Assembly (NCBI RefSeq): GCF_000154845.1
Contig: NZ_DS981457.1
Span: forward strand, 124,001 to 188,000
Reading direction: 5' to 3'
DNA: 64,000 nucleotides
From: Phocaeicola coprocola DSM 17136
GTDB taxonomy: Bacteria; Bacteroidota; Bacteroidia; Bacteroidales; Bacteroidaceae
The notes below the pieces were generated by a model that saw nothing but the letters and a program-made list of their open reading frames with translations, was not told the origin of the DNA and did no database searches. This document shows positions 44,858-52,300 of this stretch, piece by piece. A program made the translations under genes and the position numbers. How positions within the stretch are numbered: position 1 is the stretch's first letter; each line of letters opens with the position of its first letter.

Positions 44858-44936
44858 AGTTATTTATATTTTTGGGTCAGTAGAAATTTCGTGGGGATTA
44901 TTTTTTATACTCGTAAAGTATTGCTTACTTCGCATT

Positions 44937-45323
44937 ATGAAAAACGATTATTTGAACATGCTAGCCAGCCTCGTGTTGCCGGCTCAGATATTAGATTACT
45001 TTCTTATCTCTGGAGTTGAACAAACCTCTCAAGAGATTCATATTAGTCTGGATGAAAAGATGAATTCCAAGTTAAGCAATGACGAACATTTTGAATCCAA
45101 AGGTTTTATGGAAGCTGTTAATGTGACAGACTTTCCCATACGGGACCATAAGGTAATCCTCAAGATCAGACGTCGTCGTTGGACGGACTTGCGCACAGGT
45201 AAAAGTTTCAGTATTCCCATCGACCTCGATGTTGTAGCCAAGGGAACCAGATACTCCAAAGAATTTGGGGCTTTTTTAAAAGAAACGTATGGAGACATCC
45301 CCAGTGACCTGCCGTACGCTTGA
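44937..45323 (+). CDS. ISL3/ISAon1-type transposase, N-terminal reading frame
   Basis: A 128-residue protein from the ATG at 44937 (MKNDYLNMLASLVLPAQILD) with basic stretches (KIRRRRWTDLRTGKSF) expected of the DNA-binding end. Genomes of this group usually annotate it as the transposase N-terminal region, separate from the catalytic part. It overlaps the next frame by 35 bases, which is +1 relative to it. Confidence 0.85.
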   Translation: MKNDYLNMLASLVLPAQILDYFLISGVEQTSQEIHISLDEKMNSKLSNDEHFESKGFMEAVNVTDFPIRDHKVILKIRRRRWTDLRTGKSFSIPIDLDVVAKGTRYSKEFGAFLKETYGDIPSDLPYA

Positions 45324-46281
45324 GGAATTCTATCATATAGATGGTCATACATTTGAAAAACAGTACAAGGAGGTTCTCAGCGGATATCGTAATTGGGAAC
45401 AGTTATCCCATGCCGGTGAATGGATGCTGTTTCCGGAAAATATGGGACCGTATCTGGCGATTGACGAGACCTCACTCTCCAACGGTGAACTTTACACCTT
45501 TGTAACCAACCGTGATGCCTGTACGAGAGAGTGCTCCCTGGTAGCTGTCGTGGCAGGAACTAAATCAGAGGATGTAATAGCTGTGCTGCAACGAATTGAC
45601 GAGGAAAGCCGTTATGCCGTTAAAGAAGTGACACTTGACCTTTCAGACTCCATGCGCAAGATTGTACGGACTGCATTTCCTGAAGCCAGCCGTGTGATAG
45701 ACCGTTTTCACATTCAGAGATTAGCTTGTGATGCTGTGCAGGAATTACGCATCAAACACCGTTGGGATGCCATACAGCAGGCCAATGAGGAAATGGAAGA
45801 AGCTAAGCGGAAGAACGAAGATTATGTCCCATACCGATATTCCAATGGCGATACCCGTAGGGAATTACTTATACGCTCCCGGTATCTGCTTTTCAAGTCA
45901 GCTGATAAATGGACAGAAAAACAGAAGCAAAGGGCAGCAATCCTATTTGAGGAATACCCTGACATCAAAAAGGCATACGGTTTGTGCCATTCCCTGCGGA
46001 TGATTTTCTCTAAGAACACCATAAAGGACGCTGCACGTCTGGCTATGGCACGATGGTATAATAAAGTAGAAGAAGCAGGGATGCATTCTTTTAATGTCAT
46101 TGCTGCTACTTTCTATGAGCACTATGATGAAATACTGAATTTCTACAACCATCGTTCTTCAAATGCGATGGCAGAATCGTTCAATGCAAAAATTAAACTG
46201 TTCAGAGCAAATCTAAGAGGAGTAGCTGATAAGAAGTTCTTTTTATTCCGCATTGCGAAGCTATATGCGTATCCCCACTAA
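45289..46281 (+). CDS. ISL3/ISAon1-type transposase, catalytic reading frame
   Basis: A 330-residue DDE transposase core: Asp in PYLAIDETSLSNGELYTF, Asp in DLSDSMRKIV...VIDRFHIQRLA, Glu in SSNAMAESFNAKIKLFRA near the end, matching the ISL3 pattern. The protein may be made by re-initiation at the ATG at 45289 or by frameshifting from the upstream frame; the sequence does not decide. Confidence 0.9.
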   Translation: METSPVTCRTLEEFYHIDGHTFEKQYKEVLSGYRNWEQLSHAGEWMLFPENMGPYLAIDETSLSNGELYTFVTNRDACTRECSLVAVVAGTKSEDVIAVLQRIDEESRYAVKEVTLDLSDSMRKIVRTAFPEASRVIDRFHIQRLACDAVQELRIKHRWDAIQQANEEMEEAKRKNEDYVPYRYSNGDTRRELLIRSRYLLFKSADKWTEKQKQRAAILFEEYPDIKKAYGLCHSLRMIFSKNTIKDAARLAMARWYNKVEEAGMHSFNVIAATFYEHYDEILNFYNHRSSNAMAESFNAKIKLFRANLRGVADKKFFLFRIAKLYAYPH

Positions 46282-46306
46282 ATTTCTACTGACCCATATT
46301 TTTATG

Positions 46307-46391: not shown

Positions 46392-46466
46392 GGTGACTAG
46401 TGGGACTCGAACCCACGACATTCAGAACCACAATCTGACGCTCTAACCAACTGAACTATAGTCACC
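46392..46466 (-). tRNA. tRNA-His (GTG), copy 2
   Basis: 75 nt with anticodon GTG in a TT-GTG-GT loop flanked by TCAGA/TCTGA. The T-loop GGTTCGAGTCC is normal. Fitting T8, A9 and A14 to their places shows that G-1 is encoded and pairs with C73, the His identity pair. CCA is not encoded. Confidence 0.97.
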
Positions 46467-46494
46467 ATATTAAAAATGGTTGCTTCTATGAAAG

Positions 46495-46569
46495 GGTGAC
46501 TAGTGGGACTCGAACCCACGACATTCAGAACCACAATCTGACGCTCTAACCAACTGAACTATAGTCACC
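46495..46569 (-). tRNA. tRNA-His (GTG), copy 1
   Basis: Identical 75-nt copy of the neighbouring tRNA, starting 103 bases upstream. Both appear to be transcribed together and end at the terminator at 46352-46379. Confidence 0.97.
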
Positions 46570-51104: not shown

Positions 51105-51785
51105 AAAACGAGTAGGAGGAAAACGAAGTAGTTTTCTTCCTACTTTCGTTTTCCGACCTCTCACACCACCGTACGTGCCGTTCGGCATACGGCGGTTCTT
51201 TACTATGGATGCCTTTCGTATTCTTCGAAAGACACTTCCACGACATCTTCTTCAACCATCCATTTGTAGGTCTGCGCTCCTTTATACCCTTCGGATTCCG
51301 TCCTATCTCTTTAAAGGTAGCCCAATACTTCTGTTTTGGTTTTATGCATTCGTTCCAACAAACGGTAGTTTTCAGTTATGCCGTTTAAATAAAGTTTGGT
51401 CCTTCCCTATAGGCATACATGCCTTGGGTACTACGACCTCTGCTGACTTCTCACGGCAAGCTTTACTCCATCATGGTACTTCGAATCATTCATCCTCACC
51501 ATATGTCCGTGAGACCTCCTCGGATAAGGGTATTAACTTTCAATCTTATGTCTGCTCCATTTACACTAACCGTCCCGAATAGCTATAGGGCTTTAGTTTG
51601 TTTCGCAACCTTACCCACGGTCATATGCCTTATATGAAGTTTCTGTTCGTCAGACCAGATGTTTGCCGCCAGCTTCTTTCAGATTCCAACTCGCGATGGA
51701 CACCCTTGCTTTTGGCTGTATGATTCCCGCTATTAGGGCTCATTGGGGACTTGCACCCGTTAGCTAATACTCATGCCGAGCATAC
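51105..51785 (-). mobile_element. ORF-less group IIC intron, inserted behind the rplI terminator
   Basis: Read on the minus strand, the RNA starts GUAUG-CUCGGCAUGAG at 51785, aligning with the GUGUG-CCCGGCAUGGG start of the Oceanobacillus iheyensis group IIC intron. Domain I blocks GGGTGTCCATCGCGAG, TGGAATCTGAAAGAAGC and GAACAGAAACTTCATATAAG follow, then GAAGTCAGCAGAGGTCGTAG before domain IV. Domain V is at 51165-51196: a 9-bp lower stem, 2-nt CG bulge, 4-bp upper stem and GAAC loop, with a CGC triad typical of class IIC. Domain VI follows with a bulged A near its base. There is no reverse transcriptase in domain IV. The 3' end is approximate (±6 bases). Confidence 0.85.
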
Positions 51786-51793
51786 AAAAAGAA

Positions 51794-51823
51794 ATCCCGA
51801 GCAGATTTTCATCTACTCGGAAT
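51794..51823 (-). terminator. Intrinsic terminator of rpsF-rpsR-rplI
   Basis: Thirteen-bp stem (51794-51806 with 51811-51823, two G-U), loop TTTC on the plus strand, then TTTCTTTTT on the minus strand. The group IIC intron begins immediately after this T-run. Confidence 0.92.
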
Positions 51824-51850
51824 CCTATCAAGTATTTACAGACTGCAAAA

Positions 51851-52300
51851 TTAAGCTTCTTCTGCAACAACTTCGAAAGGAATTTCAACAGAAACTTCCT
51901 TGTGAAGTTTAACGACTGCTTTGTAATGACCAACTTCTTTTACAGAATCCTTAACAACGATAATCTTACGATCGATGTTGTGACCCAATTTAGCCAATTC
52001 TTCAGCAATCTGAATATTACCAACTGAACCATAGATAACGCCAGTTGCGCTAACTTTTGTAGCGATCTTCAAAGATACATCTTTCAAAGATTCTGCTACT
52101 GCTTCAGCATCTTTCTTAATCTTTTCCAATTTATGAGCACGCTGTTTCAATTCTTCAGCCAACATTTTCTTTGCAGCTGGAGAAGCGATAACTGCTTTGC
52201 CTGTCGGAATAAGATAGTTACGACCATAACCTGACTTAACGGTTACAATATCATTCTTGTAGCCCAAGTTAACTACGTCTTCTTTCAAAATAATTTCCAT
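51851..52300 (-). CDS. rplI: 50S ribosomal protein L9
   Basis: A 149-residue protein binding 23S rRNA. The N-terminal domain is MEIILKEDVVNLGYKNDIVTVKSGYGRNYLIPTG-like, with the GYGRNYLIP signature. A long helix (KKMLAEELKQRAHKLEKIKKD) connects to the C-terminal domain. Last in rpsF-rpsR-rplI, 19 bases after rpsR. Confidence 0.98.
   Translation of the reverse strand: MEIILKEDVVNLGYKNDIVTVKSGYGRNYLIPTGKAVIASPAAKKMLAEELKQRAHKLEKIKKDAEAVAESLKDVSLKIATKVSATGVIYGSVGNIQIAEELAKLGHNIDRKIIVVKDSVKEVGHYKAVVKLHKEVSVEIPFEVVAEEA

Follow-up and report, generated by a model that had tools for sequence, protein, structure and literature searches.

The E. rectale intron and O.i.I1 are group IIC introns. For class C, the targeting of terminators is established (PMC4424553, PMC8919778), and ORF-less introns are termed rare in bacteria (PMC4424553) and described as increased in certain genomes (PMC8919778). 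In Thermosynechococcus elongatus, 17 ORF-less TeI3 introns, which are of the CL/IIB type, are driven in trans by the TeI4 IEPs (PMC2882425). The Listeria jumbophage LPJP1 carries several ORF-less introns beside one with an RT, and trans action is proposed for them by the authors of that report (PMC12350094).

We analysed a stretch of 64,000 nucleotides from Phocaeicola coprocola DSM 17136, referred to here as the window, in which minus-strand positions 51107-51785 are a 679-nt ORF-less group II intron RNA with G1 at 51785 and T679 at 51107 (Table 1). As in B.h.I1, GsI-IIC and other class C introns, the insertion is terminator-proximal and the ends follow the class C boundary consensus. The CGC triad of D5 is likewise that of class C introns, a triad that is not exclusive to IIC, and the IEP of a sister intron in the same genome resembles theirs in having no endonuclease domain and in being closest, among solved structures, to IIC RTs. 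Unlike those introns, the window intron has no IEP of its own, carries a deletion scar in D4, is an ORF-less element in multiple copies and has an EBS1 that complements the T-tract itself. With TeI3 it shares a single ORF deletion with coding remnants, proliferation beside ORF-bearing sisters and a diverged EBS; two features of TeI3-type elements, the ORF deletion with coding remnants and intact related IEPs (here on contigs C56, C33 and C5), were found. TeI3, however, is CL/IIB and its trans drivers are established, whereas the window intron is IIC, is found behind a terminator hairpin with an IBS1 of about 4 bp, and would be driven in trans. The LPJP1 introns differ in being only 40-50% identical to one another and do not form a near-identical swarm behind terminators.

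Table 1. Features of the intron and its insertion site (positions in the window)
Feature	Position	Strand	Basis
rplI (ribosomal protein L9), upstream host gene	51854..52300	-	ORF
rplI intrinsic terminator hairpin, target structure	51792..51825	-	fold of the 45 nt upstream, z -6.4 against base shuffles
Terminator T-tract CTTTTT, end of the 5' exon; IBS1 is -1 to -4, TTTT	51786..51791	-	sequence; EBS1-IBS1 covariation
ORF-less group IIC-type intron, 679 nt	51107..51785	-	Rfam matches; ends from filled and empty transposase copies elsewhere in the genome
Domain I block, group-II-D1D4-3 match	51529..51700	-	143.4 bits, Rfam covariance model
EBS1 loop GAAA, intron positions 182-185	51601..51604	-	loop in RF02001 alignment; IBS1 covariation over 45 elements
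Downstream block, group-II-D1D4-1 match	51399..51469	-	43.9 bits, Rfam covariance model
D4 scar: N-terminal IEP codons joined in frame to the final C-terminal ones (EEYERHP stop), internal TAA	51203..51349	-	alignment and translation against ORF-bearing relatives
D5/D6, Intron_gpII (RF00029) match	51107..51197	-	41.4 bits, Rfam covariance model
Domain V: 9-bp lower stem, 2-nt bulge, 4-bp upper stem, tetraloop, CGC triad	51165..51196	-	fold; RF00029 alignment
Domain VI, bulged A at 51113 (7th base from the 3' end)	51110..51162	-	fold; pair counts

The original prediction, made from the letters alone, had called the element an ORF-less group IIC intron. This assignment is borne out by the Rfam matches, all three of which (group-II-D1D4-3, group-II-D1D4-1 and Intron_gpII) exceed their gathering scores, by the class C boundaries and by the RVT_1 search: no RT gene lies inside the intron, and the search of the genome gave no RVT_1 match on the window contig, C60. 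The covariance matches reach well past domain V, two of them (143.4 and 43.9 bits) lying upstream of it, and the smaller of these blocks probably sits around D3. A lack of matches beyond domain V had been named beforehand as grounds for refutation, and the result is the opposite. The three matches, together with the D5/D6 fold and its pair changes, place the element among the group II introns, six-domain ribozymes with a conserved D5 and a bulged A in D6. The proposed fold of domain V and the bulged A of domain VI also hold in the fold and in the RF00029 alignment, with CGC as the D5 triad where the Rfam consensus has AGC. The D5-D6 fold has a z-score of -6.5 against shuffles, none of 200 being as good. 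Among 13 relatives, the D5/D6 partners pair in 95.8% of cells, a share that drops to 38-52% if one side is shifted by 1-3 columns, and 7 of the 33 pairs show two-sided changes; neither measure was reached in any of 500 shuffles. In the same 13 relatives, further pair types were not above the shuffles (12 against 12.8), and the terminal D6 helix pairs in just 73.8% of cells. Domain V shows two-sided changes at 4 pairs in the relatives' alignment. A chance match is rejected on the Rfam scores, the z-score of the D5-D6 fold and the D5/D6 pair changes.

The boundary consensus of class C introns is GUNYGCCNRGCAUGG ... CCUACYCGAU (PMC4028801), and the window copy fits it at 13 of 15 positions at the 5' end and 9 of 10 at the 3' end. 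The departures at positions 7 and 15 could give a U-A pair that replaces C-G. The 5' GUAUG had been singled out as unusual; it agrees with the GUNYG of this consensus, and an aberrant 5' end is rejected on that ground.

D4 retains the trace of a coding region. Its remnant codons align with residues 3-47 of the sister-intron IEP at 49% identity, and the fused C-terminal end, EEYERHP followed by a stop, resembles the EEYLKWYPK of an ORF-bearing intron from Bacteroides sp. Marseille-P3684 (L085). Since IEP remnants are fused within D4, the element derives from an ORF-bearing intron by deletion. A 96% identical copy in a second genome, G012, aligns over its length and has the same scar. In a tree of D1-D3 (38 rows, five near-identical own copies left out, bootstrap not settled), ORF-less and ORF-bearing introns are mixed, with 8 label changes of which at least 2 are forced by well-supported branches. 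This tree does not establish loss of the ORF as a single event. Our trees and end tables omit duplicate loci and rows without a match at the positions needed.

The intron is one of 18 loci with at least 99% identity to it in its own genome, the window copy included (4.30 Mb, 90 contigs, 99.97% complete; in a 90-contig draft assembly the exact copy number could shift). Fifteen of the 18 are full-length, with 679 nt and at most three differences from the window copy, a divergence so small that it indicates recent activity. Of the incomplete loci, one enters a run of N (L018), one has an altered 5' end (L016) and one is cut by an IS (L017); an additional 60-nt 5' piece, L028, adjoins an IS. The 3' end reads AT in 9 and TT in 8 of the 17 copies that have one, the penultimate base being A or T, and the UU-ended copies (8/17; class C has AU) may splice less well. 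When sites 270, 492 and 678 are compared pairwise across the 15 full copies, all four combinations occur, a pattern that suggests exchange between copies or recurrent change.

Of the 19 loci, counting the 60-nt piece, 18 are immediately preceded by a strong hairpin (z of -4.4 or lower against base shuffles), the sole locus without one being L017, whose 5' end is replaced by the IS. One of these hairpins (L010, z -4.4) lies within a transposase ORF and is not a terminator. IIC introns recognise their targets by a short EBS1-IBS1 pairing and by EBS3-IBS3, EBS2 being, to our knowledge, lacking; here the EBS1-IBS1 helix is of about 4 bp. Sixteen own copies keep their 5' junction intact, and in these the base at -2 is always T, and that at -1 is T in 9 and C in 7, never A or G; this restriction to T or C is what a G in EBS1 allows. 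With wobble counted, all four positions pair at 10 of these junctions and three of four at the other 6, while the altered 5' end of L016 pairs at two positions and mismatches at two. The GAAA of EBS1 complements TTTC, and also TTTT through G-U wobble, so that the RNA is able to read the T-tract common to terminators.

The same pairing is seen across a wider set. Over 45 elements, 146 of 180 EBS1-IBS1 positions form Watson-Crick pairs, against a mean of 85.5 and a maximum of 110 in 10,000 shuffles, and sliding the register lowers the count to 96 or fewer. The set comprises 44 deduplicated rows, none of them copies of the window intron, plus the window copy itself (L001); the rows are mutually related, 8 of the 44 come from the sister intron in this genome, and the set retains rows whose 5' end or loop is weak, such as L063, L065 and L072. 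The sister intron has UACC or UAUC as EBS1, which calls for GGTA or GATA, and its sites end in GGTA, GATA or TATA. In the G012 copy, the first base of EBS1 is C instead of G, and the target base at -1 is G. Sixteen of 17 own copies have T as IBS3. Looking for an EBS3 base complementary to +1 did not single out one position, as there is little variation at +1 (34 T, 2 C and 1 G, n=37). The copy number, the scar of the IEP deletion and the EBS1 loop that reads the T-tract were all unforeseen in the original prediction.

The sister intron occurs at seven places, which match the window intron at 82% identity as far as intron position 561 or 550; two more places have 73% identity to it. An uninterrupted 468-aa IEP with YADD is encoded at three sister loci (contigs C56, C33 and C5), giving at least three intact IEPs. 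The one tested, from L034, reaches 410 bits with the TIGR04416 group II RT/maturase model (cut-off 300) and has RVT_1 and GIIM as its only domains, with no endonuclease domain. Its nearest solved relatives are 7uim, which we take to be from E. rectale (406 bits), and the GsI-IIC RT (400 bits), compared with 159 bits for LtrA and 124 bits for 6me0, presumably from T. elongatus; by this measure the sister-intron IEPs look class C-like. A search for an RT-encoding intron of more than 85% identity elsewhere in the genome had been proposed; the sister with intact IEPs has 82% over positions 1-561.

Compared with sister L022 in 50-nt blocks, the window RNA is 88-100% identical over the first 250 nt, 62-76% over positions 251-600, 90% over 601-650 and 76% over the last 29. 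These values make recognition in trans plausible as a prediction; given the drop over positions 251-600, recognition by the sister IEP is not assured. The group II IEP of L035 is a less likely driver, since little of its RNA matches the window intron.

We consider it probable that this ORF-less IIC-type intron, present at 18 near-identical loci, spreads in trans behind terminators by means of the resident sister IEP; for the action of an IEP on the ORF-less RNA we rely on anatomy and precedent. The original prediction had offered a maturase in trans or a dead or purely ribozymal element, and 15 near-identical full copies at unrelated sites, with intact sister IEPs in the same genome, favour the first of these. 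An internal deletion took nearly the whole IEP gene out of D4, leaving the fused coding remnants. The resident sister IEP would then bind the ORF-less RNA, helped by the 88-100% identity blocks of the 5' 250 nt, and splice it, and the RNA would reverse-splice behind transcription terminators through the sister RT/maturase. The IEP would prime cDNA on single-stranded DNA at replication forks, like endonuclease-less IIC introns. Retargeting of EBS1 to GAAA, together with the shorter RNA, would account for 18 loci as against about 7 of the sister. The driver could also be another IEP, such as that of L035, or one since lost.

The chief alternative, which we regard as unlikely but deserving weight, is that a parental intron with its own IEP, now lost or present in another strain, spread the copies, and that they are stranded in a genome whose resident IEP cannot use their RNA. 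The closest relative shown to be ORF-bearing does lie in another genus: it is L085, with 85% identity over positions 1-561, compared with 82% for the resident sister. Bacteroides caecigallinarum ET21 has one full ORF-less copy at 96%, besides short fragments alone, and the ORF-less form is therefore likely older than the burst seen here; the G012 copy is identical over 2,067 nt to an ET21 contig. Partial matches of 95-100% within the same genus stop at contig ends (L170, 267 nt, 95%; L071, 126 nt, 97%; pieces in G017 and G005); these might be ORF-bearing, and a better-matched parent may exist. Against a lost parent, none of the other 14 full-length copies departs from the window copy at more than three positions, which means recent activity, and the resident sister IEPs are intact now. 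Moreover, no ORF-bearing copy above 85% over positions 1-561 was found among the best candidates in 61 genus, 301 family and 393 order genomes, with the best 9 candidates per genome scored in the genus search and the best 2 in the family, order and D4-probe searches. Copy numbers in the relatives are lower bounds, G012 and seven others having been searched more fully.

ORF-less relatives also occur outside this lineage. At thirteen further loci, no more than about 660 nt separate D5 from the 5' end, and D4 has no IEP match. A D4 probe from one ORF-less relative, L093, matched 14 of the 301 family genomes, the own genome not among them, and its nine strongest matches, which cover 115-166 query bases at 80-100% identity, fall in 8 genera. 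These 8 genera thus contain a second type of ORF-less intron, distinguished by a conserved D4 of its own (L093, L086, L092, L101, L156, L158, L161 and others), and in L068 the second-type D4 goes with a D1-D3 part that shares only about 75% identity with that of the window intron. A 96% relative of the window intron, L087 (1501-1848), is shortened to about 348 nt, positions 1-286 being joined to 633-680. The window and G012 copies differ at 30 positions, of which 9 cluster in 20 nt of D5 (51171-51190), and 8 of these form four paired changes. The alternative D5 of the G012 copy is found in L085, from another genus, as well (window D5 compared with L056 and L085), and looks like a module swap. 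The D4-flanking pattern gave 0 matches in a scan of viral contigs, and a plasmid search gave no record with a single place covering 80% of the query.

The exact ends of the element come from one copy on contig C8 (L010), which interrupts an ISL3-family transposase (PF01610) after a TTC codon. All 15 other copies of this transposase stretch in the genome read TTC-TAT uninterrupted. Comparison of the filled copy with the 15 empty ones defines the intron as G1 to T679, with no target duplication, and moves the 3' end from the 51105 first proposed to 51107, a difference of two bases. Splicing from the C8 transposase would restore its reading frame. This IS is also present in the window at about 44874-46295, with 16 copies by transposase probe, and two identical tandem tRNA genes lie on the minus strand at window positions 46392-46568.

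That the RNA is dead and its copies were carried as DNA, through recombination or as passengers of an IS, we judge very improbable. Ends of the ISL3-family IS do adjoin two intron pieces, L017 and L028, as nested mobile elements. The IS ends, however, fall inside these two pieces, and of the remaining intron copies retrieved only L010, itself inside the IS, shows the IS-end pattern. At the single site for which the genome also has empty copies, insertion is exact and free of duplication, flanks are unrelated, and a hairpin and an EBS1-complementary target are found at nearly every site. Spread at the DNA level is rejected, contradicted as it is by the filled and empty transposase pair.

At rplI itself, the intron directly follows the terminator as predicted, with the T-run at 51786-51791 and then G1 at 51785. 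A match to rplI was obtained in 56 of the 61 genus genomes searched, own genome included, with 30 loci returned. In none of the 29 relatives read, out of 55 other rplI-matching genomes, is there an intron match within 600 nt 3' of rplI, 2 of the 29 offering only about 250 nt after the gene. By eye, all 29 have a terminator-like hairpin after rplI, and a 75-nt fold past the rplI stop has z below -2.5 in 28 of 29, the value in L112 being -1.2. The arrival of the intron at rplI is recent, to judge from these empty sites. That the element is instead a regulatory RNA of rplI or merely its structured 3' UTR, as its place directly 3' of the gene in sense orientation might suggest, can be dismissed, given that it is missing in 29/29 relatives read and occupies 17 other loci in its own genome; conservation at this site, named beforehand as grounds for refutation, was not found.

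Within the literature searched, which covers only a minority of subscription journals, no report was found of a multi-copy ORF-less IIC family or of ORF-less Bacteroides introns. Nor did that literature yield the combination present here, a recent multi-copy ORF-less IIC family whose EBS1 pairs with the T-tract.

Eukaryotic SINEs and bacterial MITEs are short non-autonomous elements that outnumber the autonomous ones supplying their enzymes. They are other molecules with another mechanism, and the window intron resembles them by analogy, with no relationship implied. More tentatively, and with the balance somewhat against it, one may picture Bacteroidaceae as holding a standing guild of non-autonomous IIC introns, a counterpart of SINEs, with at least two separately scarred ORF-less lineages, that of the window and the D4 type of 8 genera. 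Such introns would use resident IEPs, swap D4 and D5 modules and adapt via a four-base loop, and in the window lineage a single change of EBS1 to G would have opened nearly any T-tract (TTTC, TTTT) and started the burst.

If the window intron is spread by the protein of a related element, it would be the equivalent in bacteria of the mobile DNA that freeloads in animal genomes. The genome offers a natural IIC system in which many sister insertions, both filled and empty sites and a candidate driver IEP occur together, with a change in one loop linked to target choice. It makes testable how IIC introns choose terminators, by hairpin or by EBS1, how much divergence of the RNA an IEP tolerates, and how a parasite of a retroelement may come to outnumber its host element.
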